A DNA stretch of 64,000 nt, taken from NCBI RefSeq assembly GCF_000378605.1, contig NZ_KB905157.1:124001-188000 (forward strand), given 5' to 3'. The DNA is from Thioalkalivibrio sp. ALJ21 (GTDB taxonomy: Bacteria; Pseudomonadota; Gammaproteobacteria; Ectothiorhodospirales; Ectothiorhodospiraceae). Position numbers and translations under genes: made by a program. Under the pieces are notes generated by a model that saw only the letters and a program-made list of their open reading frames with translations, did not search any database and had not been told where the DNA came from. Position 1 is the stretch's first letter. The number at the start of each line of letters is the position of its first letter. Shown piece after piece: positions 1,278 through 58,421 of the stretch.

Positions 1278-2477
1278 ATGCGAATTTGCGCAATCTTGAC
1301 TTCCCGATACCCCTTACTGCTTGTTCTGGCGGCATTTTTGCTGGTACCCGCGGGCAGCCTCTCGGCGTTTGAGCCGGAGGCCGAGCTGGAGGAGACGCTG
1401 GAGGCGATCCGTGACCTGGAGCGCAGCCAGGAGGAGCGCCACGCGGCGCTCGAACGCCTGGAGGATGAGCTCGCGCGCGCGGCGCGAGGCAGCAGCGAGT
1501 CGCGGCGCGAATTGCGCGAGCTGGAGGCCCAGCGCGCGCAGCAGTCCGAGGTGATCGCCGAGCACGAGGCGCGCGTTGAACAGGAAGAAGAGCGGCTGCG
1601 CGAGGAACGCGTGCAGGCGGGGCGCCTGCTGCGCGACCAGTGGCAGCGCGACCGGCACCCGGGGCGCGTTCCGGGAACCGGGGGCGAGGGCGAGCTGAGC
1701 CGGTTGCACCCGGAGATCGCCGCGCGCCTGCGGGAGGCGCGGGCCGAGGCGCTGGTCGCCCTGGGGGAGCAGCTTGAAGTGCTGCGCGCCGCCCGCGACG
1801 ACCTGGAACGCGAGCAGGCGGTACTGGCCGAACAGGAGGCGGCGCTGCGCGAGGTGGTGGCGGATCTCGAACGCGAGGAGGAACGGCAGCGTGCGGCGAT
1901 GGAGGAACTGGAACGGGCGATCGAGGACGAGGCACTGGAGCTGGCACGGCTGGAACGTAACGCGGAGACCCTGGAGGATCTGATTCGCGAGGTGGAGCGC
2001 GATGCGGCGGAACGCGAAGAGCGTGCCGCGCGGGGCGATCCTCCACCCGAGCGTGCGCCGGTTCGTTCCGACGTCGACTTTGCCGACCTCCAGGGCGAGC
2101 TGCCCAGGCCGGCGGACGGCTCGGTCGTCCGGCGTTTCAACGAGCCGCGCGGCAGCCGTCTGCAGTCACGCTGGCGGGGGACCGTGCTGGAGGTCGACAA
2201 CGGCGAGTCCGTGCACGCCGTCCATTTTGGTCGTGTGGTCTATGCCGACTGGATGCAGGGCTACGGTTTTCTGGTGATTCTCGACCACGGGAACGGCTAC
2301 CTGACGCTGTACAGCAACCTGGAGGAGATCCTGGTCGCCGAGGGCGAGGAGGTCGAGGGCGGCACGCGGATGGCCCTGGCCGGCGCCGGGCGCGAAGCGA
2401 TCGCGCCGGGACTCTACTTCGAGATTCGGCGAAATGGCGATCCGTTGAACCCTGAGGACTGGTGGCTATCTCAATGA
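1278..2477 (+). CDS. envC: EnvC-like murein hydrolase activator
   Basis: 399 residues: signal peptide (about 1-30, cut near AFE), long charged coiled coils (about 35-255), then a C-terminal LytM/M23-like domain (about 285-395). The metal-binding site is degenerate: the final HxH strand reads LYFEIRRNG, as in EnvC, so it should be a non-catalytic activator of periplasmic amidases (AmiA/AmiB) at the division septum. It is followed by the carboxyl-terminal protease gene, the usual gammaproteobacterial order. A phosphoglycerate mutase gene often found upstream is not here; the ArsR regulator is divergent instead. A TATAAG hexamer at 1253-1258 could be a -10 box, but no -35 accompanies it. Confidence 0.85.
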   Translation: MRICAILTSRYPLLLVLAAFLLVPAGSLSAFEPEAELEETLEAIRDLERSQEERHAALERLEDELARAARGSSESRRELRELEAQRAQQSEVIAEHEARVEQEEERLREERVQAGRLLRDQWQRDRHPGRVPGTGGEGELSRLHPEIAARLREARAEALVALGEQLEVLRAARDDLEREQAVLAEQEAALREVVADLEREEERQRAAMEELERAIEDEALELARLERNAETLEDLIREVERDAAEREERAARGDPPPERAPVRSDVDFADLQGELPRPADGSVVRRFNEPRGSRLQSRWRGTVLEVDNGESVHAVHFGRVVYADWMQGYGFLVILDHGNGYLTLYSNLEEILVAEGEEVEGGTRMALAGAGREAIAPGLYFEIRRNGDPLNPEDWWLSQ

Positions 2478-2482
2478 CGAGC

Positions 2483-2501
2483 GTCACGAAATAATCGTGA
2501 C
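2483..2501. promoter_or_regulatory. 19-bp perfect inverted repeat between envC and ctpA
   Basis: GTCACGA-AATAA-TCGTGAC is a perfect 7-bp dyad with a five-base centre, six bases after the envC stop codon. It has no GC-rich stem or T-run, so it does not look like a terminator. It is more like an operator for a dimeric regulator acting on ctpA, or a small mRNA stem. No partner site was seen elsewhere in the window. Confidence 0.35.
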
Positions 2502-2618
2502 CATGTTTGAAGGATTTGTCGGGCGAAAACAGCAGACGCAGTCGGGCGTTCAGGCATGGGTCAGATTCCCGGTGCTACCATCGACACGGTAAATACCTCC
2601 GTTTCTAGAGGATCGGTA

Positions 2619-3905
2619 ATGAAGAAGTCTTGTCGCACCGGGTACGCCCTGGTGGTGGGTTTGGTGGTTGGTGTCATGCTCAGCGTGTCGGTGGCGGTGT
2701 ATGCCGATCGCGAGAATGGCGCACAGAATGCCTTGCCGGTGGAGGACCTGCAGCGGTTTACCGAGGTGTATATGCGCATCAAGCGCAATTACGTCACCGA
2801 GGTGGACGACAAGGAGCTGCTGGACAACGCCATCCAGGGGATGCTCTCCGGGCTGGACCCGCATTCGGCCTATCTCGACGAGCAGGACTTCGAGGACATG
2901 CAGGTCGGGACCTCCGGCGAGTTTGGTGGTCTGGGCATCGAGGTCGGCATGGAGGATGGCTTCGTCAAGGTCATTGCCCCGATCGATGACACCCCGGCGA
3001 GCAAGGCCGGCATCGAGGCGGGTGATCTGATCATTCGCCTGGACGGTGAATCCGTGCAGGGCATGACGCTGTCCGATGCCGTCTCCAAGATGCGCGGCGA
3101 GAAGGGCACCGACATTACCCTGACCATCGTCCGCGAGGGCGAGGACCAGCCGAAGGAGATCACGCTGACGCGCGACCGTATCCAGGTCCAGAGCGTGCGC
3201 TCCGAGATCCTCGAAGACGGGTATGGCTACCTGCGTATCAGCAACTTCCAGCAGCGCACCGCGCGTGACGTCGTGCGAGCCGTCGAAGAGCTGAAGGAAG
3301 AGGGTGATCTGCGCGGCCTGGTGCTGGATCTGCGCAACAACCCGGGCGGCATTCTGAATGGCGCGGTGGGTGTGTCCGATGCCTTCCTGGAGGAAGGGCT
3401 GATCGTTTATACCGAAGGTCGGCTGGAGGACTCGCAGTTCCGCTACCAGGCCTCGCCGGGTGATGTGCTTGGCGGCGCCCCGATGGTGGTACTGGTGAAC
3501 CGGGGTTCGGCCTCGGCCTCCGAGATCGTGGCTGGTGCCCTGCAGGATCACAAGCGTGCAGTGGTCATGGGCCAGAACACCTTTGGCAAGGGTTCGGTGC
3601 AGACGATCCTGCCGCTGACCGAGAACACCGGTATCAAGCTGACCACGGCGCGTTACTTCACGCCGGACGGCCGCAACATCGAGAAAGAGGGCGTCGAGCC
3701 CGATATCCGGCTGGAGAACCTGACGGTCTCGCGCGCCGATGACGGCAATGGGCGCGATGCCCAGGTGCGCATGCAGCAGGAGTTGCAGGGCGAGGACGTG
3801 CCGGAGGACGATGACGACAATGGCGAGAGCCTGGCCGAGCGCGATTACGGTCTGAGCGAGGCCCTGAATCTGCTCAAAGGGCTGAACATCTACAGTCAGC
3901 GCTGA
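2619..3905 (+). CDS. ctpA: Carboxyl-terminal processing protease (S41A)
   Basis: 428 residues. I chose the ATG at 2619, preceded by AGAGGA, over a frame-open codon 63 bases upstream; it gives a clean N-terminal hydrophobic export segment (about 8-28). A PDZ domain (about 100-185) is followed by the S41 catalytic domain. Nucleophile S299 (in GSASASEI) and general base K324 (in TFGKGSVQ) form the Ser-Lys dyad with the family's 25-residue spacing. CtpA proteases trim or degrade periplasmic proteins from their C-termini, and in several bacteria control cell-wall hydrolases, which suits the envC neighbour. The acidic C-terminal tail is low complexity. Confidence 0.93.
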   Translation: MKKSCRTGYALVVGLVVGVMLSVSVAVYADRENGAQNALPVEDLQRFTEVYMRIKRNYVTEVDDKELLDNAIQGMLSGLDPHSAYLDEQDFEDMQVGTSGEFGGLGIEVGMEDGFVKVIAPIDDTPASKAGIEAGDLIIRLDGESVQGMTLSDAVSKMRGEKGTDITLTIVREGEDQPKEITLTRDRIQVQSVRSEILEDGYGYLRISNFQQRTARDVVRAVEELKEEGDLRGLVLDLRNNPGGILNGAVGVSDAFLEEGLIVYTEGRLEDSQFRYQASPGDVLGGAPMVVLVNRGSASASEIVAGALQDHKRAVVMGQNTFGKGSVQTILPLTENTGIKLTTARYFTPDGRNIEKEGVEPDIRLENLTVSRADDGNGRDAQVRMQQELQGEDVPEDDDDNGESLAERDYGLSEALNLLKGLNIYSQR

Positions 3906-3919
3906 TTGGGGGTGTGGCC

Positions 3920-4474
3920 ATGACGGAGGAAACACCACGTGTCCTGGTGCCGCTGGCGGCCGGGGCCGAGGAACTGGAGGCCGTCACTATCATCGATCTG
4001 TTGCGCCGCGCGCGCTTCGAGGTCACGGTCGCGGGGCTCGAACAGGGCCCCGTGCGCTGTTCCCGCGGGACGGTGATCCAGCCCGATACCATGCTGGATG
4101 CAATTCAGGACGATGCCTTCGACCTGATCGTGTTGCCCGGTGGTCTGCCGGGGGCCGATCACCTGCGCGACGATCCACGTGTACAGGCAATGCTGCGGGC
4201 ACAGGCCGAGCGCGACGGCTGGCTGGGTGCGATCTGTGCCGGGCCCAAGGCTCTGGCACAGGCGGGGGTGCTGGAAGGTCGTCGGGTGACCTCGTTTACC
4301 GGGGCGCTGGACGAATCGGGCATCCCCTCTACCGGGGGGCTGGTCGAGGTCGACGGGCGCATCATCACCGGACGTGGTCCGGGGGCGGCGATGGACTTTG
4401 CCCTGGCCCTGATCGAGCAGCTGGCCGGGCGCGAGGCCCGCGAGGCCGTCGAGGGGCCGTTGCTGCGTCCTTAG
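3920..4474 (+). CDS. DJ-1/PfpI family protein (YajL-like)
   Basis: 184 residues in the DJ-1 fold. The nucleophile elbow AICAG carries C106, the same number as in human DJ-1, and the partner acid is E17 in GAEELE. Members act on oxidative or carbonyl stress, as chaperone or deglycase; the biochemical role is disputed in the literature and cannot be settled here. I chose ATG 3920 over GTG 3914 because the GGGGG ribosome-binding stretch is seven bases from the ATG but too close to the GTG. It starts 14 bases after ctpA and is probably co-transcribed with it. Confidence 0.85.
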   Translation: MTEETPRVLVPLAAGAEELEAVTIIDLLRRARFEVTVAGLEQGPVRCSRGTVIQPDTMLDAIQDDAFDLIVLPGGLPGADHLRDDPRVQAMLRAQAERDGWLGAICAGPKALAQAGVLEGRRVTSFTGALDESGIPSTGGLVEVDGRIITGRGPGAAMDFALALIEQLAGREAREAVEGPLLRP

Positions 4475-4634
4475 AAAGACAGACCTTTCCTGCTCCCGTG
4501 CAAGCCCTGCGCGGCTCCATCCAGCGTCACTTCGCATCCTGGCATGAACCCGACGGCCCCAGTCGATTAGACTGTGCGGGTCTCGCGGTCGCCTGGCCGC
4601 GCCCTACGAACCCAACCCAAGGAGTCGTGACCGA

Positions 4635-5372
4635 ATGGCAGGCCACAGCAAGTGGGCGAACATCCAGCATCGCAAGAACGCCCAGGACGCCAAGCGCGGC
4701 AAACTCTTTACCAAGCTGATCCGCGAGATCACCGTCGCTGCCCGGCAGGGCGGGTCCGACCCCGAGACCAATCCGCGCCTGCGCCTGGCGATCGACAAGG
4801 CACTCGGCGCCAACATGACACGGGATACCATCGAGCGCGCGGCCAAGCGCGGCGCTGGCGAGACCGACGGGGCCGCAATGGAGGAGATCCGCTACGAGGG
4901 CTATGGCCCGGGCGGCGCGGCGATCCTGGTCGACTGCATGACCGACAATCGCAACCGGACGGTGGCCGAGGTGCGTCACGCCTTCTCCAAGATGGGTGGC
5001 AACCTGGGGACCGATGGCTCGGTGGCCTACCTGTTCCAGAACAAGGGCGTGATTCGTTTTGCGCCGGGGCTGGACGACGAGACGGTCATGGAAGCCGCGC
5101 TGGAGGGTGGGGCCGAGGACGTGCAGGTCGAGGACGACGGCGCGATCGAGGTGATTACCGAGCCCGATACCTATCAGGACGTGCGCCAGGCCCTGCTGGA
5201 CCGGGGACTGGAGCCGGAGGGCTCGGAGGTCACCTGGCGCCCGGAGACCCTGTCGCCACTCGATGACGAGACCGCCGAGTCCGTGCTGAAACTCCTGGAG
5301 ATGCTGGACGACCTGGACGACGTGCAGAACGTTTTTACCAACGCCGATTTCCCGGAAGGCGTGGGGCAGTGA
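4635..5372 (+). CDS. yebC: YebC/PmpR family protein
   Basis: 245 residues, full length, with the family-typical N-terminus [20 protein letters not shown]. YebC proteins were first described as transcription regulators; members have more recently been linked to ribosome function at proline-rich stalls. They have three domains and no enzyme active site. AAGGAG lies ten bases upstream of the ATG. It precedes ruvC-ruvA, a very common arrangement. The 160 bp before it contain nothing else I can name. Confidence 0.93.
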
Positions 5373-5417
5373 TGCCACGCTTCTGCACGCTGTAATTCGA
5401 GCCTCCCTGGATAAGCG

Positions 5418-5933
5418 ATGCGGATCCTTGGTATCGACCCCGGTTCGCGGATCACTGGCTTTGCGGTGATCGAGTACGCCAAGGGCCAGGGCCGTTCCCG
5501 CGGCCATGGTGTGATCCGGCCCAGATCCAAGGGGTTTCCCGAGCGCCTGGGCGAGATCTTCGCCGGCGTGGTCGAGGTGATCGGCGAACTCAAGCCCGAC
5601 GTGCTGGCGATCGAAACGGTATTCGTCGCCCGCAATGCGCAGTCGGCGATCAAGCTGGGGCACGCCCGGGGGGCCGCCATCTGCGCGGCGACTCAGGCCG
5701 GGCTCCCGGTACATGAATATGCCCCGCGTGCGATCAAGATGGCCGTGGTCGGCGTGGGCAGCGCGGACAAGGAGCAGGTCCAGCACATGATGCAGCAACT
5801 GTTACGTCTGACCGAACCGGCCAGCAGCGATGCCGCCGATGCCCTGGCCGTCGCGCTGTGCCATGCCCATACCGCCCAGCACCAGGCGCGTCTGGCAGGC
5901 GCCGCCTCGGCCGTGATTGGGGGGCGCCCATGA
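5418..5933 (+). CDS. ruvC: Holliday junction resolvase RuvC
   Basis: 171 residues, typical length. The acidic residues of the RNase H-like active site are all present: D7 (GIDPGS), E66 (AIETVF), D138 and D141 (SSDAADAL). It cuts four-way junctions symmetrically as a dimer, in cooperation with RuvAB. Its stop overlaps the start of ruvA by four bases (ATGA). Confidence 0.95.
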   Translation: MRILGIDPGSRITGFAVIEYAKGQGRSRGHGVIRPRSKGFPERLGEIFAGVVEVIGELKPDVLAIETVFVARNAQSAIKLGHARGAAICAATQAGLPVHEYAPRAIKMAVVGVGSADKEQVQHMMQQLLRLTEPASSDAADALAVALCHAHTAQHQARLAGAASAVIGGRP

Positions 5934-21997: not shown

Positions 21998-23212
21998 TCA
22001 GGTCCTGGACAGCGAATCGAGTATGTCCTCGGTCCAGCGTACCGATTCCAGATAGAGCCGGCTGGCAACCTGCGGTGCTACCGGGGATTCTCCGGCGGGG
22101 GGCGGGTTTGCGGGCCCCTCGAATGCCTCGATGGTCGCCAGCCATGGGGCCAGCAGGCCTTTGTGTTCAATCAGCGCCTGTTCCACCTCCGGCGCCAGGC
22201 GCAGTTCGTTCAGGATGCGACGCAGCGGGATGCCCAGCACGCGGTCCAGTCCGGAGAGCATCCCCAGCGAAAAGTGACACTCGCACTCCGAGGCCGTCAG
22301 ATTGCACGCCCGGGCCAGAAGCATCCCCATGCGGGCTCGAATCATGACCTGCTCGACCGCAGCCGAGGGTCCGGCCGCATTGTTGAGAACCAGCAGCATC
22401 CCGATGCGGCGGATGCGCCCCTGCCCCAGACGATCGATCGCCGAAGCCAGGTCCTCCGCGGGCTGTTCGCCGCGGTAAGCGGGACTGTTGGCGATGCGCA
22501 GGATCTGCGCGGCCAGATCGGGTTCGGCGCCAATAAGGCGTTCCAGTTCCGATGGTTCGGGATCGGAGTCCTGCAGCGTCTTCAGCAGCTTCAGTAGCGC
22601 GACTTCCAGGCTCTCCAGGCGCTGGCCTTCGATTACGTGCGGGTGCGACAGGTGGTAGCCCTGGAAGTAGCGAAAACCCAGTTGCTGGCAGTGGTGGTAG
22701 CACTCGGCGGTTTCGACCTTCTCTGCCAGCAGCTCCACGCCGAACGTGCGCAGCGTCTCGACCTCGCGTGCCAGTGCCTCGGTGGAAAGGGCCAGTACAT
22801 CGAGTTTGACGATGTCCGCCAGCGCCACCAGCGGCGAGTGGTGGACCTGAAACTGGTAGTCATCCAGGGCGATGCGAAAACCTCGCTGCTTCAGCCTTTG
22901 CACCGCGGCGACGACCTCGGAATCGATCTCGATATCCTCGAGGATTTCCAGGACCACCTGATTGGGGGGCAGGCCGGTGATGATGTCGTCGTCGAGAAAG
23001 GACCGTGTCAGGTTGACGAAGGCCAGGTGCGGACCGACCAGATGGGGCAGGCCGATATCCACGAACGCGCTTCGCAGCAGGTCCGAGGTGGCTTCGTCGC
23101 CATTGGTCACCGAGGCTTCGCTACGATGTCCGGCGCGAAAGAGGAGTTCGAAACCGACCAGGCGCTCGTGCGCATCGAAGATGGGTTGCCGGCCGACAAA
23201 AATAGGGTGCAT
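21998..23212 (-). CDS. EAL-HDOD signalling protein
   Basis: 404 residues: an EAL domain (about 1-200) then an HDOD domain (about 205-380). The EAL site is degraded: FELLFR replaces EALLR, and DDYQFQ replaces DDFGTG, so it probably does not cleave cyclic-di-GMP and may only bind ligands or partners. The architecture matches YuxH-like proteins. HDOD proteins are non-catalytic HD relatives involved in signalling. It is divergent from the 69-residue gene at 23287. Confidence 0.85.
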   Translation of the reverse strand: MHPIFVGRQPIFDAHERLVGFELLFRAGHRSEASVTNGDEATSDLLRSAFVDIGLPHLVGPHLAFVNLTRSFLDDDIITGLPPNQVVLEILEDIEIDSEVVAAVQRLKQRGFRIALDDYQFQVHHSPLVALADIVKLDVLALSTEALAREVETLRTFGVELLAEKVETAECYHHCQQLGFRYFQGYHLSHPHVIEGQRLESLEVALLKLLKTLQDSDPEPSELERLIGAEPDLAAQILRIANSPAYRGEQPAEDLASAIDRLGQGRIRRIGMLLVLNNAAGPSAAVEQVMIRARMGMLLARACNLTASECECHFSLGMLSGLDRVLGIPLRRILNELRLAPEVEQALIEHKGLLAPWLATIEAFEGPANPPPAGESPVAPQVASRLYLESVRWTEDILDSLSRT

Positions 23213-23286
23213 GCTTGCGCTTTGCCAGTTGATGAAAGAGGCGGCCCGATCTGCGTGTGGCCGGCCCGGGAGAGAGCGTACACATC

Positions 23287-23496
23287 ATGGAGTCCATTGA
23301 TGCGCCGTTTGGTGAGGTCGTGGAGTTGCGGCAGATCCTGCACGACTCGGGAATCCCTCTCCTGAGGGTCATTATCCGCGATGGCGGCCGCTACACCAAG
23401 ATAGAACTGGACCCGTCTACTGCCCATCAGTGGGGCCGCATGATGGTGCGCTGGGCCGAGACGGCGTCGCAACAGGAAGGTGCTGGAGAAGGATAG
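23287..23496 (+). CDS. Small conserved-looking protein of unknown function
   Basis: 69 residues, MESIDAPFGEVVELRQI. I chose ATG 23287, with GGAGAG about nine bases upstream. The protein is compact and looks foldable (alternating hydrophobic strand LLRVIIRDGGRYTKIELD, then a helix with HQWGRMMVRWAE). No enzyme motif, signal or membrane helix. A strong terminator follows after about 55 bases, which supports a real transcript. Family not recognised with confidence. Confidence 0.6.
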   Translation: MESIDAPFGEVVELRQILHDSGIPLLRVIIRDGGRYTKIELDPSTAHQWGRMMVRWAETASQQEGAGEG

Positions 23497-23551
23497 GGTT
23501 CCGACTGAGTGGTGTCCGTGATGGTTTGCCCACTCGAGACTACAAGCAATA

Positions 23552-23578
23552 AAAAAGCCCGGCCAAGCCGGGCTTTTT
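23552..23578. terminator. Bidirectional intrinsic terminator
   Basis: AAAAAGCCCGGC (23552-23563) pairs perfectly with GCCGGGCTTTTT (23567-23578) around a CAA loop. T-runs follow on both strands (TTTTT on plus; TTTTTTATT on minus). It would end both the 69-residue gene and the rpmB-rpmG operon. Confidence 0.92.
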
Positions 23579-23613
23579 GATCTGCCATCAGGCGCTCTCG
23601 CGCCGGGCAGGCA

Positions 23614-23784
23614 TTACTTGATCTTGGCTTCCTTGTACATCACGTGCTTGCGGATGACCGGATCAAACTTCTTGATCTCCATCTTTTCGGGCATGTTCCG
23701 CTTGTTCTTCGACGTGGTGTAGAAGTGGCCGGTGCCGGCGGAGGACACCAGGCGGATCTTGTCGCGTGCGCTCTTCGCTGCCAT
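23614..23784 (-). CDS. rpmG: 50S ribosomal protein L33
   Basis: 56 residues beginning [20 protein letters not shown]. It is the cysteine-free form, lacking the zinc-binding Cys pairs of the alternative L33 type. AAGGAG precedes ATG 23784. Ten bases downstream of rpmB. Confidence 0.96.
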
Positions 23785-23794
23785 GGGTAGCTCC

Positions 23795-24031
23795 TTACAC
23801 CTTTTCGCCGCGGGCGCGGCAGTCCGCGAGCACCGCATCGATGCCCAGCTTGTCGATGATCCGCATGCCCTTGCTGCTCACGCGCAGCCGCACGAAGCGG
23901 TTCTCGCTCTCCACCCAGAAGCGGTGGGTGTGCAGATTAGGCAGGAAACGCCGCCGCGTCTTGCGGTGGGCGTGGGATACGTTGTTACCAGTCGCCGGGC
24001 GCTTGCCGGTCACCTGACATACTCGGGCCAT
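23795..24031 (-). CDS. rpmB: 50S ribosomal protein L28
   Basis: 78 residues, [20 protein letters not shown], standard length and start. First gene of rpmB-rpmG, ending at the bidirectional terminator. Confidence 0.97.
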
Positions 24032-24105
24032 CTCGGGGACTCCGGAAATTGGGTCTAGCAAAAGACGGCGGATCTTAGCCTAGTCGGCGGCTCGGCGCAA
24101 GATCA

Positions 24106-25842
24106 TCACGGATCGTCCTGTTCCAGTGCGCACTCGCGCTGCAACGAGGGCTCGATCGTCTGATGGCGTGCCCATTGCAGTGTCTCGTTGAAGGGCATGG
24201 GGCGGGCGACCCCGAAGCCCTGGACGGCGTCGCAGCCCAGTTCGCGCAGCATGGCGAGGGTCTGGCTGTCTTCCGCGCCTTCGGCCACCACCTTCAGGCC
24301 AAGGTCGTGCGCGAGGCCCACAGCCGCGCGGGTGATCTGCTCGTCCACCCTCTGTGTGGCCATGTGGGACACGAAGGTCTGGTCGACTTTGAGGGTCGTC
24401 ACCGGGAGTCGCCTAAGGTAGGCAAGAGAGGAATATCCAGTGCCGAAGTCGTCGATGGAGAGCGCCAGCCCGCGCTCGGTCAGACGCCGCAGGGCCTCGA
24501 TGACTTGATCGGGGTCGGCCATCAGGGCCGTCTCGGTGAATTCGATCTCCAGCGCGCAGGCCGGGAGACCAGCGGCTTCTATGCGCTCGATAATGGTTTG
24601 GGCAAAGTCGGGATCGAGGAAATTGCGCGCCGAGACATTGATGCTGACCGGGGCCTGGATGCCTTGTTCGCGCAGCACAAGGAGGTCGGCGATCGCCAGG
24701 TCCAGCACCTTGAGCGTCAGGGCATGAATGAGGCCGGTGCGCTCGGTTTGTGCAATGAATCGGTCCGGCGGTACCTGTCCCCGATGCGGGTGTTGCCAGC
24801 GCAACAGGGCCTCGAAGCCACACAGTTCGCCATGCCGCAGGGTCACCTTGGGCTGGTAGTGCAACTGGAACTGGTCGTCCTCCAGGGCGCTTTGGAGTTC
24901 CCCCAGCAGCTCCACGGTCTGGCGCCCGGCGTCGTTGCTGCGCCGGTCGTAGGTGCGGTAGCGCCGGCCCGACTGACTGGCTTCGTGCATCGCCATCCAG
25001 GCCTTGGTCAGCAGGCTTTGCGGGTCGTCTTGTTCGTGGAACGGAAACGAGGACACCCCGGCGTGGGCCCCGACGTAGACCGGCAGCCCGAGTACCTCGA
25101 ACGGCGCCTGCAACTCTTCCACGGCCTCCTGTGTGGTGGCCAGGCACTCCTGGCGGCTGCGGTGAGGCAGCAGCAAGGCGAAGTGATCGTCGTGGATATG
25201 GTAGACGAGGGTGTCCGGGCTCCCGGCGACTGCCTGCAGGCGTTCGGCAATCCCCATCAGCAGGGGTCTCTCCGCGGCGAAGCCCAGGGCGCTGATCGTG
25301 TCCGCATAGTTATCCATTTGCAGGCTGATCACGAATACCCGGGTCGCGGGCTGCTCCGAGCCCTCCGCCTGGGCCATCAAATGGCGGATATGCTGTTCCA
25401 ATGACTCGCGGTTGGGCAGGCCGGTCACAGGGTTGTGGTAGGCCTGATCGAGCAGCCGCGCCGCGTGCTGGCGCAGCTGGGAGAAAAGCCACCCGCTGAA
25501 CCCGCCCAGCACCAGATAGATCCCGGCACGGGTCAGCCAGTTGAGGGTCGGCTGGGCGATCCCCTCGTCCACATTCAGGGGCATGAACGGCCCCAGCAGT
25601 AGCCCGGCCAGCAGGCCGAAGGCCAGCCCGCCCCACAGGCCCATCAGGGCGGCGCCCAGCAGTACCGGGATCAGGACGAAGTTGAGATAGGCGGTGCTGG
25701 TGCCGCCGGTCTGATAGACCAGTAGTGTGACGCCGGCCATCAGGATCAGGACCAGCCCCACGCCGGTCAGGCGCCAGGCGCCGGTCACCCCCAACCAGGA
25801 TTCGGGACGCCAGGGTCGGTCAAACTCCGAAAGCCGCTCCAT
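24106..25842 (-). CDS. Membrane GGDEF/EAL protein, probable c-di-GMP phosphodiesterase
   Basis: 578 residues. Three or four N-terminal membrane helices (about 25-130), then a degenerate GGDEF domain (about 138-300) whose signature reads HIHDDHFAL, so it should not make c-di-GMP. The C-terminal EAL domain (about 315-565) is intact: EALLRW, INVSARN, EFTETALM, DDFGTGYSSLAYL, LKVDQTFV, VAEGAE and QGF. Likely an inner-membrane phosphodiesterase with a regulatory GGDEF. AAGGAA lies upstream of the ATG. Divergent from the LysR gene. Confidence 0.88.
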   Translation of the reverse strand: MERLSEFDRPWRPESWLGVTGAWRLTGVGLVLILMAGVTLLVYQTGGTSTAYLNFVLIPVLLGAALMGLWGGLAFGLLAGLLLGPFMPLNVDEGIAQPTLNWLTRAGIYLVLGGFSGWLFSQLRQHAARLLDQAYHNPVTGLPNRESLEQHIRHLMAQAEGSEQPATRVFVISLQMDNYADTISALGFAAERPLLMGIAERLQAVAGSPDTLVYHIHDDHFALLLPHRSRQECLATTQEAVEELQAPFEVLGLPVYVGAHAGVSSFPFHEQDDPQSLLTKAWMAMHEASQSGRRYRTYDRRSNDAGRQTVELLGELQSALEDDQFQLHYQPKVTLRHGELCGFEALLRWQHPHRGQVPPDRFIAQTERTGLIHALTLKVLDLAIADLLVLREQGIQAPVSINVSARNFLDPDFAQTIIERIEAAGLPACALEIEFTETALMADPDQVIEALRRLTERGLALSIDDFGTGYSSLAYLRRLPVTTLKVDQTFVSHMATQRVDEQITRAAVGLAHDLGLKVVAEGAEDSQTLAMLRELGCDAVQGFGVARPMPFNETLQWARHQTIEPSLQRECALEQDDP

Positions 25843-56004: not shown

Positions 56005-56714
56005 CCGGCCCGCTCGTTCCCGGCGGGCCCGTGGTCCGTCTGCTGGGTGTGCAGCCCTATGTGCCCGTCTGGCAGGCGATGCAGCTCCAGGCCCGAGAGC
56101 GGGATGCGACGCGTCCGGACGCGTTCTGGTGCGTCGAGCATCCCCCCGTCTTCACCCAGGGCCGTAATGGCCGCCCCGAGCATCTGCTGGACCCCGGCGC
56201 GACGCCGGTGGTGGCGATCGATCGCGGGGGGCAGGTGACCTGGCACGGCCCCGGGCAACTGGTCGTCTACACGCTGGTGGACCTGCCGCGTCTGGGGATC
56301 GGGGTTCGGCGGCTGGTCCAGGGCCTGGAGCAGGCGGTGATCGATACGCTCGCGCAATGGGGTATCGGCGCGCAGCGCCGGGAGAAGGCGCCGGGGGTGT
56401 ATGTAGGCGGGGCCAAGATTGCGGCGCTGGGCCTGCGCATCCGGCACGGGCGCAGCATCCACGGGCTGGCGTTGAACATCGCCCCGAGTCTGGCACCGTT
56501 TCAGCGCATGAATCCCTGTGGCTATCCCGGCCTCGCCGCGACCTCCATGCAGCAACTGCTCGGCCCGCTGGACGCCACCCGCGTCCGCGAGCAGCTGCTC
56601 GCCCATCTAGCCGAACAGCTGTTTCCCGCCGAGGCTTCGAGCATCCGGCATGAGCCCGCTTTGCCGCCCGAGCTTGTCCGGGTTCTGGCGCTGGGGCGTT
56701 GTCCTGCGTCCTGA
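56001..56714 (+). CDS. lipB: Octanoyl-ACP:protein octanoyltransferase LipB
   Basis: 237 residues with catalytic C173 (NPCGYPGL) and K139 ([12 protein letters not shown]). It moves octanoate from ACP to lipoyl domains; LipA then adds sulfur. Start is GTG overlapping ybeD as GTGA. The last seven codons and the stop (LGRCPAS) lie within the left terminal repeat of the downstream island, so the C-terminus was supplied or altered by that element. Confidence 0.94.
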
Positions 56715-56796
56715 GGCTGGACCTGGTTCGTCCTCTGGAGTTTACGGTGGCTTCGTCCGGCCGCCTGCCAAGCGCTGTCTCGGCAGCGCGCCCCGA
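56691..56796 (+). repeat. Left terminal repeat of the island
   Basis: Begins CTGGGGCGTTGTCC and contains GGAGTTTACGGTG and CGCCTGCCAAGCGCTGT. It includes the last seven codons and stop of lipB. Inverted copy at 57337-57443, also with an in-frame TGA after the LGRCPA-type codons. Confidence 0.88.
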
Positions 56797-56826
56797 GTTA
56801 CTTCTTTGCTCGTGCAAAGAAGTAAC
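56797..56826. repeat. Perfect 13-bp hairpin (left copy)
   Basis: GTTACTTCTTTGC (56797-56809), loop TCGT, GCAAAGAAGTAAC (56814-56826). The equivalent hairpin at the right end has a different stem sequence that is still perfectly paired. Confidence 0.85.
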
Positions 56827-56851
56827 CAAGAAACACGCCCGACTGCCGCGA

Positions 56852-56876
56852 CCCCGGCCCGCTATGCGGGCCGGGG
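56852..56876. repeat. GC-rich 11-bp hairpin in the island
   Basis: CCCCGGCCCGC, loop TAT, GCGGGCCGGGG, followed by TTT. It could act as a transcription terminator for lipB. Confidence 0.7.
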
Positions 56877-56889
56877 TTTCCCTCGCTCC

Positions 56890-56973
56890 GAGGGTTTTCG
56901 CGGGCGGCGCTGAAACTCGCTGCGCTGTCGCTCCGCTCAGACAGTCAGCGCCTCTCTTCCCGCGAAAACCCTC
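56890..56973. repeat. Long inverted repeat (cruciform-type) in the island
   Basis: GAGGGTTTTCGCGGG (56890-56904) pairs perfectly with CCCGCGAAAACCCTC (56959-56973). A second stem nested inside, GGCGCTGA (56906-56913) with TCAGCGCC (56945-56952), is almost continuous with it. The apex is a Cys/Leu-codon-like GCTGCGCTGTCGCTCC stretch. Confidence 0.8.
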
Positions 56974-57068
56974 TCCACTCGGCGCGACGACAACGGGGGT
57001 GAAGGTCCAAACAACGGCTGTCCCAGCGACGTAGCACATGGATGGAGGCTGGGTCTTCCGACATTTTA

Positions 57069-57098
57069 GGCACGCTCGGCCTTCGGCCATGGCGTGCC
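57069..57098. repeat. Hairpin GGCACGC/GCGTGCC in the island
   Basis: A 7-bp perfect stem (57069-57075 with 57092-57098), with an inner GGCC-TTC-GGCC stem inside it. Confidence 0.65.
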
Positions 57099-57125
57099 GC
57101 GCCCGCGAGCGGGCACCAAGGGGTG

Positions 57126-57213
57126 GGTAGGATGCCGATGAGCGTAGCGAATCGCATCAGGGTTAGCCCCGGTGTCGGGATGGTGCGTTTCGCTGCGCTC
57201 AACCGCACCCTAC
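57126..57213. repeat. Inverted pair of REP-like units
   Basis: Unit 1 (57126-57164) contains GATGCCGATGAGCGTAGCG; unit 2 (57178-57213) contains GGTGCGTTTCGCTGCGCTC. The reverse complement of unit 1 matches unit 2 at roughly three quarters of 35 positions by hand count. Each unit is itself an imperfect palindrome (GATGC/GCATC; GGTGCG/CGCACC) sharing the TTCGCTnCGCTCA core. Confidence 0.7.
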
Positions 57214-57308
57214 GGCGTTGGAGTTGGCTGCAGGCATGGGGATACTTTTGTTTTGACCTTCATCCCCCCGTATGAAGCCCCTTGCGGAATCCGGGTGCAC
57301 TTCTTTGG

Positions 57309-57336
57309 GTACTTTCTTGGGCAAGCAAGAAAGTAC
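57309..57336. repeat. Perfect 11-bp hairpin (right copy)
   Basis: GTACTTTCTTG (57309-57319), loop GGCAAG, CAAGAAAGTAC (57326-57336). It occupies the same place in the right arm as the hairpin at 56797-56826 does in the left, with different but fully compensated pairs. Confidence 0.85.
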
Positions 57337-57443
57337 CTCGGGGTGCGCTGCCGAAACAGCGCTTGGCAGGCGGCGGACCGAAGGCACCGTAAACTCCAGA
57401 TGCCGAACCAGGCCCAGCCTCAGGGCGCGGGACAACGCCCCAG
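57337..57443 (-). repeat. Right terminal repeat of the island
   Basis: Inverted copy of 56691-56796. Read on the minus strand it begins CTGGGGCGTTGTCCCGCG and carries GGAGTTTACGGTG and CGCCTGCCAAGCGCTGT. It ends 21 bases from the lipA stop codon. Confidence 0.88.
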
Positions 57444-57464
57444 TGAGAGGGGATGGCGGGCGGG

Positions 57465-58421
57465 TCAGGCGGTTTCGAGGCCCTGGGCCTGGAGGTCGGC
57501 GTGGTAGGACGAACGGACCATCGGGCCGCTCGCCACCTGCTTGAAGCCCATTTCGCGCGCGGCCTCGCCGAGGTCGTCGAACTCCTCTGGTGCCAGGAAG
57601 CGCGTGACCGGCAGATGATGGCGCGAGGGCTGCAGGTACTGGCCGAGGGTCAGCATGTCGCAGCCGTGCTCGCGCAGGTCCGCCAGGACCTCCAGAAGCT
57701 CCTCGCGGGTCTCGCCCAGCCCCAGCATCAGGCCGGACTTGGTCGGTACTCCGGGATGCTGCTCGCGGAAGCGCTTTAGCAGCTCCAGCGACCACTGATA
57801 GTCGGCGCCGGGACGCGCCTCGCGGTAAAGCCGCGGGATCGTCTCGAGGTTGTGGTTGAAGACGTCCGGCGGGGCCTGGTGCATGATCTCCAGCGCCCGG
57901 TCCATGCGGCCGCGGAAGTCGGGCACCAGGATCTCGATCTTCGTGGTCGGATTCAGCTTGCGGACCTCGCGGATGCAGTCCACGAAGTGGCCGGCGCCAC
58001 CGTCACGCAGGTCGTCGCGATCCACCGAGGTGATGACCACGTACTTCAGGCCCAGCGCCTGGATGGTCTCCGCCAGGTGACGGGGCTCATCCGGGTCGAG
58101 GGCCTCGGGGCGGCCGTGGGCGACGTCGCAGAACGGGCAGCGGCGAGTGCAGATGTCGCCCATGATCATGAAGGTAGCGGTGCCGTGGGCGAAGCATTCG
58201 CCCAGGTTCGGGCAGCTCGCCTCTTCGCAGACGGTGTGCAGCTTCTGGTCGCGCAGGATGCGCTTGATGCGCTGCACCTCGGGCCGGGCCTGGCTCTGGG
58301 CACGGATCCACTTCGGCTTGCGCTGCGGCTGCTCGGTCGGGCGGATCTTGACCGGGATGCGCGCGACCTTGTCGGCGGCGCGTTGTTTTTCGCCAGGTTG
58401 GGGGCGGGTTCGAGTATCCAT
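57465..58421 (-). CDS. lipA: Lipoyl synthase LipA
   Basis: 318 residues. Auxiliary cluster cysteines C65, C70, C76 ([12 protein letters not shown]) and radical-SAM cluster C91, C95, C98 (CTRRCPFC), plus the C-terminal RSSYHAD serine ligand. It inserts two sulfur atoms in protein-bound octanoate. Here it converges on lipB, whereas the two genes are often co-directional. Basic N-terminal extension of about 55 residues. Confidence 0.96.

Follow-up and report, generated by a model that had tools for sequence, protein, structure and literature searches.

A hairpin-tipped inverted-repeat family at orthologous gene-end sites in Thioalkalivibrio, with contents and orientation that vary between species at a shared site

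In the genome of Thioalkalivibrio sp. ALJ21, the spacer between the genes lipB and lipA holds a 711-bp element built of nested inverted repeats, which lies in the 64,000-nt stretch that we analyzed (NZ_KB905157.1, positions 124,001-188,000, forward strand; hereafter the window). We found that several species of Thioalkalivibrio have copies of this element in orthologous spacers at the 3' ends of genes, most of them flanked by a convergent pair, and that both content and orientation can differ between species at one site. Intergenic repeats are usually judged by their copy number and mobility; here the addresses are fixed while the contents circulate and flip, and in this family nature has recorded how copies recombine and how near-palindromes persist. 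We favor, with a probability of roughly 0.55, the reading that this is an old non-coding element family of 3'-end spacers, reshaped by recombination between its copies and, less surely, playing a role at transcript ends.

Copies of the element occupy the same sites in related genomes

A search of the ALJ21 genome listed 85 matches at E ≤0.001, and 40 of the 53 first-look candidates were scored; among these we counted 15 copies that bear arms, i.e., the long inverted repeats that end the element, nine of them long (711-875 bp) and six short (89-329 bp). Twenty places were fetched besides the window copy, six REP-only places being left unfetched, and the remaining six fetched loci hold only a pair of repetitive extragenic palindromes (REPs), in one case with additional center sequence (L117). 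Members of the family measure about 0.7-0.9 kb, the other long ALJ21 copies match that of the window at 70-90%, and the arms recur together in all nine long copies. The sequence is thus not single-copy, in line with the repeat family proposed in the initial annotation of the window.

Across 58 genomes, the element was matched in 21, namely in 17 of the 30 from Thioalkalivibrio (ALJ21 counted) and in 4 of the 28 from outside the genus. We took 40 more loci from five relatives (in the search of G029, 40 of 66 candidates were scored) and compared flanks with the elements masked; the 49 long elements discussed below are a chosen subset of the copies, fetched from six genomes. For 14 of the 15 ALJ21 copies, an element between the same flanks was present in at least one of the five relatives, and the flanks of same-site pairs averaged 90.6% identity in local alignments (60 pairs). 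Three elements (L149, L162 and L164) have one flank only in common with their site group. At lipB-lipA, the nearest named relatives of lipB, with 93% protein identity, come from Thioalkalivibrio sp. ALJ3, T. thiocyanoxidans ARh2 and ALJ16. Contigs break inside the lipB-lipA element in ARh2, ALJ16 and ALE31 (L029, L030 and L032); draft assemblies can therefore break at these repeats, and copy numbers taken from them may be too low.

At five of the six short ALJ21 sites, the relatives hold elements of 616-881 bp, and the short copies are for this reason best read as probable deletion products. Four of them consist of two arms joined at the 18-nt hairpin GCGCTG..CAGCGC, as would be expected of deletion between the palindrome's two copies. 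At one more site, which is filled in G029, G025, G004 and G020, ALJ21 keeps ~6 bp of the left and ~16 bp of the right arm end. The initial annotation had suggested looking for empty sites; this single near-empty one found in the genome is a deletion remnant and not a clean empty site. Lack of the element was seen by eye in the lipB-lipA spacers of the outgroups T. halophilus and ALJ24 (~36 and ~43 nt, respectively), and a covariance model of the two arm hairpins (R1) matched none of the lipB neighborhoods of 74 other named records.

Contents and orientation differ between copies at one site

To compare the copies themselves, we counted unaligned query positions as mismatches and took the better orientation. 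By this measure, identity was 0.792 for pairs at the same site (50 pairs), as against 0.781 for different sites within a genome (187 pairs) and 0.762 between genomes (939 pairs), and the nearest neighbor was the same-site copy for only 10 of the 43 elements having one in the set. The same-site signal stands at 0.58 in the 40 bp outside the element edge, where the background is 0.28, and is lost ~30 bp inside. Relative to their flanks, same-site pairs are divided evenly, with 25 of 50 flipped and 25 unflipped. The window copy, for example, is 94% identical to its counterpart in G029 and flipped relative to the flanks, while reading of the lipB-lipA elements of other strains revealed a center reversed with respect to the window copy in ALJ3 and extra tandem arm units in ALJ7 and ALJT.

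The elements also mark the breakpoints of larger rearrangements. In G004, two elements (L145 and L146) have exchanged flanks when compared with the ALJ21 sites L109 and L118: one junction joins L118-left to L109-left reversed and the other L109-right reversed to L118-right, with the alignments stopping within ~60 bp of the element edges. These junctions describe a reciprocal inversion of ~1.04 Mb (C1:138 k to C1:1174 k in ALJ21 coordinates) with its breakpoints at elements; the two sites lie 1.05 Mb apart in G029. Similarly, L161 of G001 joins L118-left to L112-left reversed. From the breakpoints we infer that these rearrangements were homologous events between elements, which would make the family a likely engine of chromosome rearrangement in these related soda-lake bacteria.

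As a separate observation, among the 40 of 66 candidates scored in G029, no long element was listed over ~0.96 Mb of its 2.74-Mb contig (C1:884000-1845000), where a single short arm copy lies near 1093.5 kb; this stretch falls within the segment inverted in G004.

Unlike arms each keep their own local hairpins

In a full copy, an arm is followed by an inner module, the center, a second inner module in inverted orientation and the other arm. The center holds one hairpin and, in eight of the nine long ALJ21 copies, a pair of GTAG-tagged REPs, which L114 lacks. The arms carry two hairpins each and are of two types: X reads CTTCTTTG-CTCGTG-CAAAGAAG and then GAAACACGCCCG, and Y reads CTTTCTTG-CTTGCC-CAAGAAAG and then GAAGGGCACCCG. 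Both arms could be typed in 45 of the 49 long elements, of which 43 are X/Y, two X/X and none Y/Y, and the order of the arms with respect to the center is free to vary (Y-X in 19, X-Y in 17). Copying between the arms of one element, which would have been expected to give like arms, thus appears to be nearly absent, suggesting that a difference between the arms is required, perhaps owing to the instability of perfect palindromes.

Of all 98 arms of these elements, simple patterns recognized 92 as having hairpin 1 and 89 as having hairpin 2. Five arms were dropped for failing a pattern (four truncated, and one, the right arm of L134, with an altered hairpin 1), and 62 of the remaining 93 entered alignment A1. 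In the inner pair of hairpin 1 we counted 50 G-C, 31 C-G and a single C-C among the 82 of 93 arms caught by a looser pattern. Compensation was assessed on 34 arms of 71 nt, picked by a pattern that itself requires intact hairpins, in which 99.7% of 612 cells were paired. Double changes occupied 52 cells, compared with 18.8 in shuffles, whereas the number of doubly changed pairs was not above that of shuffles (4 vs. 3.5). Since the arms are unlike in 43 of 45 elements and yet each keeps its own hairpins, the local hairpins are the likely functional unit, and we infer that they, and not one giant cruciform, are what is kept.

Most elements lie at the ends of convergent genes

Genes were called with our own codon-usage caller, trained on 26 long open reading frames (ORFs) of the window. 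Spacers between convergent genes hold 13 of the 15 ALJ21 sites and divergent spacers none. The background of 169 adjacent gene pairs comprises 13 convergent, 26 divergent and 130 same-strand ones, and the probability of at least 13 convergent sites in 15, given 13/169, is ~3e-13. Moreover, 27 of the 30 element edges lie 8-80 bp from the flanking gene. In the window, the neighbors were confirmed as lipB and lipA (NCBIfam), convergent as initially annotated; the stop codon of lipB forms the first three bases of the element, and the stop of lipA lies 42 nt beyond its right edge.

We envisage that homologous recombination and gene conversion between copies, acting through the arms and the inner modules, would exchange and flip the contents, while selection would keep the arm hairpins. 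More tentatively, the transcript arriving from each neighboring gene might encounter the two hairpins of the nearer arm in one order and orientation, hairpin 1 first and hairpin 2 second, so that the element could end, protect or insulate both convergent transcripts without a classical T-tract terminator, and the instability expected of a fully palindromic form might be what keeps the arms unlike. A use to the cell would thus most likely be sought at transcript ends, a placement with which termination, protection and mere tolerance are alike compatible.

A hairpin core recurs across the class and beyond

With up to 18 candidates scored per genome, R1 had a match at E ≤1e-4 in 33 of 274 genomes of the class and in 29 of the 221 genera sampled; two of the 33 genomes are from Thioalkalivibrio. 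Rfam 15 at gathering score returned only a tRNA in the window and nothing in eight loci of other bacteria; a DNA element common among bacteria may thus lack both a name and a function. To the class-wide alignment, 34 loci contributed 58 matches, which gave 49 distinct rows, four of them from Thioalkalivibrio, with 98.2% of 856 cells paired and double changes in 16 of 18 pairs compared with 10.9 in shuffles, figures that are to be read with the lean of a model-fitted alignment towards structure; slid controls of the same alignment gave only 43-52% pairing. Outside the genus, neighboring R1 matches less than 3 kb apart were inward in 11 cases, in line in 6 and outward in none, by our own tally among the matches listed, which had not been selected.

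A second covariance model, R2, was applied to 54 loci that had partly been picked for neighboring matches and, in some cases, for wide spacing. We used 92 of its 101 matches, leaving out eight that overlap a stronger match on the opposite strand and one duplicate place. Among 37 adjacent pairs at most 3 kb apart, 27 point inward, 1 outward and 9 in line; three of the inward pairs (L022, L023 and L182) are from Thioalkalivibrio, and hairpin 2 is the same on both arms in only 2 of the 27. The strict X/Y rule is thus shown in Thioalkalivibrio only.

Among named records, blastn also found matches of ~40-57 nt around hairpin 2 in Pseudoalteromonas, Aeromonas, Pasteurella, Burkholderia, Caballeronia and, outside the phylum, Ilyobacter; the models were run on five of these and gave their weakest result in Aeromonas (E 0.038 with R1, 2e-5 with R2). 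In the E. coli genome collection, nothing matched a Y-arm query of 49 nt. A megaplasmid of Ilyobacter polytropus (Fusobacteriota; L224, 2473-2545) carries a Y-type arm core (R1 E 1.8e-6), and the 49-nt typed query matched this core at 100% over 48 nt, with seven places in the record. The full identity is partly by construction, as the query was built after this locus had been seen, which does not apply to the R1 match. The arm core in Ilyobacter suggests a possible transfer between phyla.

In 12 of the 27 inward pairs, the arms lie over 700 bp apart and enclose ORFs of at least 80 aa, some of these loci having been fetched for their wide spacing. Pfam recognized a GIY-YIG-type T5orf172 domain (L202), a methyltransferase (L203) and an ion-channel domain (L186) between the arms, most other inner ORFs having nothing above the cut-off, and PADLOC gave partial matches at L202 and L203 and weak ones at L209 and L210. 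The 18 distinct proteins scanned from the loci of other bacteria, 12 of them encoded between inward arms, included no transposase, in a scan that was not exhaustive.

Some of these loci contain further repeats. In L211, a stretch duplicated in tandem (2025-5537, period 2357 bp) contains an arm and a gene with a cupredoxin-type domain, and a third arm copy lies 8.3 kb further on. Tandem 117-bp units adjoin an arm in L212 (2964-3396), where the arm region repeats 1.5 kb downstream, and L210 (3309-7431) has three in-line arms, spaced by ~2 kb, that enclose two HTH_37 genes.

Mobility and the nearest known systems

With terminal inverted repeats and no coding capacity according to our gene caller, the element shows two traits of a miniature inverted-repeat transposable element (MITE). 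The target duplications that the initial annotation proposed to look for did not appear, as the longest words common to both edges of the 15 ALJ21 copies are 3-7 nt long and have nothing in common, leaving none that is consistent at the element edges. ALJ21 has two PF01797 (Y1 transposase) genes (L128, C1:1011737-1011967, and L129, C1:494639-494959). By eye, the former is adjoined by other GTAGGAGGCC-type palindromes and the latter by an inverted AACGGGGTCGGACC-like motif, and blastn of the element against both loci gave chance matches only (best E 0.30). As neither the arms nor the center repeat stand beside the two genes, we rejected the REP-associated tyrosine transposase (RAYT) genes of this genome as the mover. 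Carriage of the whole element by a plasmid or virus was also discarded, with no plasmid match and no viral contig for two exact arm patterns. A search for an autonomous parent gave, between inward arms, genes of miscellaneous families or none, with no transposase among the proteins scanned.

The central GTAG REP pair is of a known kind, and the terminal inverted repeats (TIRs) of TIRtrons and the TRIP1 elements are the nearest concepts to the whole. REPs measure 20-40 bp (PMC3733652, PMC3116915), and GTAG-1 repeats have been reported in Thioalkalivibrio K90mix (PMC3733652). The likeness holds for the center only, where two GTAG-tagged palindromes stand in opposite orientation, and extends to the arm-less REP copies elsewhere in the ALJ21 genome. 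Unlike REPs as described there, these form the apex of a 0.7-0.9 kb structure and not the whole element; they are absent from L114, give way to another palindrome in two diverged elements (L022 and L023), and have no cognate RAYT flanked by the same REP at the two PF01797 loci.

In TIRtrons and TIRYTs, TIR repeats flank tyrosine transposase genes, and the long, partly self-complementary inverted repeats, which also occur as gene-free families of moderate copy number (PMC3733652), resemble our arms. The difference is that no transposase was found between the arms here: no inner gene was called in the nine long ALJ21 copies, and the two PF01797 genes have other flanks. TRIP1 of E. coli measures 146-273 bp and comes in five types, each at a specific locus, that cause chromosome rearrangements; in two placements the repeat follows the terminator or stop of a gene at a distance of 31 and 41 bp (PMC10888264). 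Shared with our family are long GC-rich intergenic repeats, locus specificity, very stable predicted folds, a partial form without an internal stretch, and rearrangements, whereas TRIP1 is smaller, and unlike X/Y arms, a REP center, exchange of content between sites and a class-wide hairpin core do not feature in the description as far as it was available. Finally, the P. fluorescens repeat families R0, R2, R178, R200 and others (50-352 bp, some with inverted repeats) resemble ours by description in being intergenic, in the inverted repeats of some and in their bias towards convergent spacers (PMC2718517). No description of the whole element was found in the literature within the reach of our search, which did not extend to most subscription papers.

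Weighing the alternatives

Several observations weigh against an old family reshaped by recombination with a role at transcript ends. As regards the role, two of the 15 ALJ21 sites (L111 and L114) are not convergent and lie behind one gene, ~120 bp before the next, and no T-tract terminator (GC-rich stem, then T-tract) was found on either strand in 56600-57500, leaving the bidirectional terminator of the initial annotation to rest on position and hairpins. Arm matches outside Thioalkalivibrio are not limited to convergent spacers: that of Pasteurella lies between two same-strand genes, aceF and lpdA flank that of Burkholderia, and 14 non-Thioalkalivibrio loci, judged from ORFs alone, include several same-strand or unclear placements. 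Such placement weakens a pure terminator reading. The convergent position may even be only the least harmful place, as Silby et al. argued for Pseudomonas repeats (PMC2718517), and the short copies and the near-empty site show that most of the element can be lost. As regards fixed sites, exchange and unlike arms, a same-site element was not established for L127 in the five relatives, a small same-site excess in identity persists within the element (0.00-0.07 per interval), two elements are X/X (L149, truncated by a contig end, and L150), and among the 27 inward pairs 10 have a Y-type loop on exactly one arm, 3 have it on both and 14 have none.

The same data can be read in other ways. A purely selfish, non-autonomous MITE- or REP-like family, moved by some as yet unnamed enzyme, with the hairpins as recognition ends, X and Y as left and right, and the copies as old fossils left where they do least harm, is possible, if unlikely. 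It would account for the arms that point inward, both among the listed R1 matches and in the fetched loci, for REPs that occur in the center and alone elsewhere, and for the element-free lipB-lipA spacers of the two outgroup species; yet no transposase was among the inner genes scanned, no consistent target duplication and no new insertion within the clade were seen, the two PF01797 genes have other flanking repeats, and selfish spread alone leaves same-site copies with swapped and flipped contents unexplained. Rather unlikely, in our estimate, is a dedicated bidirectional terminator or mRNA 3'-end stabilizer whose sequence is selected by the host at each site, recombination being a by-product. 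The convergent sites, at which almost every edge lies 8-80 bp from a flanking stop, the local hairpins with compensatory change and the very stable fold speak for such a device, whereas the absence of a T-tract, the shortness of 6 of the 15 ALJ21 copies, the placements elsewhere beyond convergent spacers and the two ALJ21 sites ~120 bp before the next gene speak against it.

Bolder readings give the arms a different part. The widespread element, with its two unlike, inward, hairpin-tipped ends, might be a recombination boundary whose contents, elsewhere possibly single genes, are swapped or inverted at fixed addresses, making it a cassette-exchange and chromosome-inversion system without an enzyme of its own; we regard this as distinctly doubtful. 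A cassette system, in which unlike inward arms bound exchangeable genes and any element without a gene is an emptied or decayed cassette, seems improbable: the widely spaced inward pairs with ORFs, some of them from loci fetched for that spacing, and the T5orf172, methyltransferase and ion-channel cargo would fit, but most inner ORFs are without a family match and some are possibly spurious, our caller found no gene in the long Thioalkalivibrio copies examined, and two neighboring elements with a gene between them would look identical. We consider it very improbable that same-site copies are unlike only through saturation of their variable positions under constraint on a consensus, with no exchange. 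The strongly diverged intergenic flanks (~0.58 at the same site, background 0.28) would allow for this; however, many elements are more than 0.90 identical to a copy at another site and only ~0.75 to that at their own (e.g., L109), and the modules and orientation differ at one site; this explanation is already disfavored. Recombination between copies of an old 3'-end family remains our preferred reading.

Structure of the lipB-lipA element

When copies are aligned, conservation begins abruptly with TGAGGCTGG at the element edge. A repeat search paired 56691-56829 with 57305-57443 over 139 nt at 86% complementarity, and the fold energy of the element strand is -456.9 kcal/mol, compared with an average of -306.5 in 20 shuffles (z -17). 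The composite inverted-repeat island of the initial annotation, its nested dyads and its REP-like pair are all borne out by these results and by the features in Table 1.

Table 1. Features of the element between lipB and lipA (positions in the window)
Feature	Positions	Strand	Basis
Element, without most of the right inner module	56712-57422		boundary conservation, copy comparison
Left arm, type X	56712-56842	+	arm typing, arm alignments A1 and A2
X-arm hairpin 1 (GCGCTG..CAGCGC)	56772-56789	+	pair counts
X-arm hairpin 2 (GTTACTTCTTTG..CAAAGAAGTAAC)	56797-56826	+	repeat search, pair counts, class-wide model matches
Left inner hairpin (ACCCCGGCCCGC..GCGGGCCGGGGT)	56851-56877	+	repeat search
Left inner module, 15-bp stem enclosing the GGCGCTGA..TCAGCGCC hairpin (56906-56952)	56890-56973	+	repeat search, copies; inner coordinates by reading
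Center between inverted AAGGTC / TTTGACCTT motifs; either orientation relative to the arms among copies	57002-57270		sequence, copies, orientation counts
Center hairpin GGCACGC..GGCGTGCC	57069-57098	+	sequence; conserved in copies
GTAG-tagged REP, first of pair	57127-57158	+	sequence; arm-less REP copies elsewhere in the genome
GTAG-tagged REP, second of pair, inverted	57182-57213	-	sequence; arm-less REP copies elsewhere in the genome
Right arm, type Y	57292-57422	-	arm typing, alignment A2
Y-arm hairpin 2 (GGTACTTTCTTG..CAAGAAAGTACC)	57308-57337	-	repeat search, pair counts
Y-arm hairpin 1	57345-57362	-	alignment, pair counts
Flank palindrome, left half (in the 3' end of lipB), complementary to 57423-57443	56691-56711	+	repeat search, cross-site scoring
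Flank palindrome, right half	57423-57443	-	repeat search, cross-site scoring

The limits first given for the island, 56691-57443, hold in that the arms pair over them; the element proper is shorter, the outer 21 nt on each side being a flank palindrome that is conspicuous only at this site. That palindrome scores 32 here, 10-20 at the other 14 ALJ21 sites and at most 24 in 210 cross-site pairings, and as it is clear only at lipB-lipA we discarded the idea that the elements generally insert into terminator hairpins. The layout had also been described as symmetric, which needs correcting in that most of the right inner module is missing, though kept by the other eight long ALJ21 copies. No gene was called inside the element, and it is indeed the only long gene-free stretch of the window: the only larger gap left by our caller (23212-24106) holds the gene for ribosomal L28, and the next, of 299 bp, contains a tRNA.

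The two diverged Thioalkalivibrio elements mentioned above, L022 and L023 (from G006 and G012), follow the same inner grammar with different outer arms, a GTGGGAGGCGAGCCCTC.. palindrome standing in place of the central GTAG REP pair.

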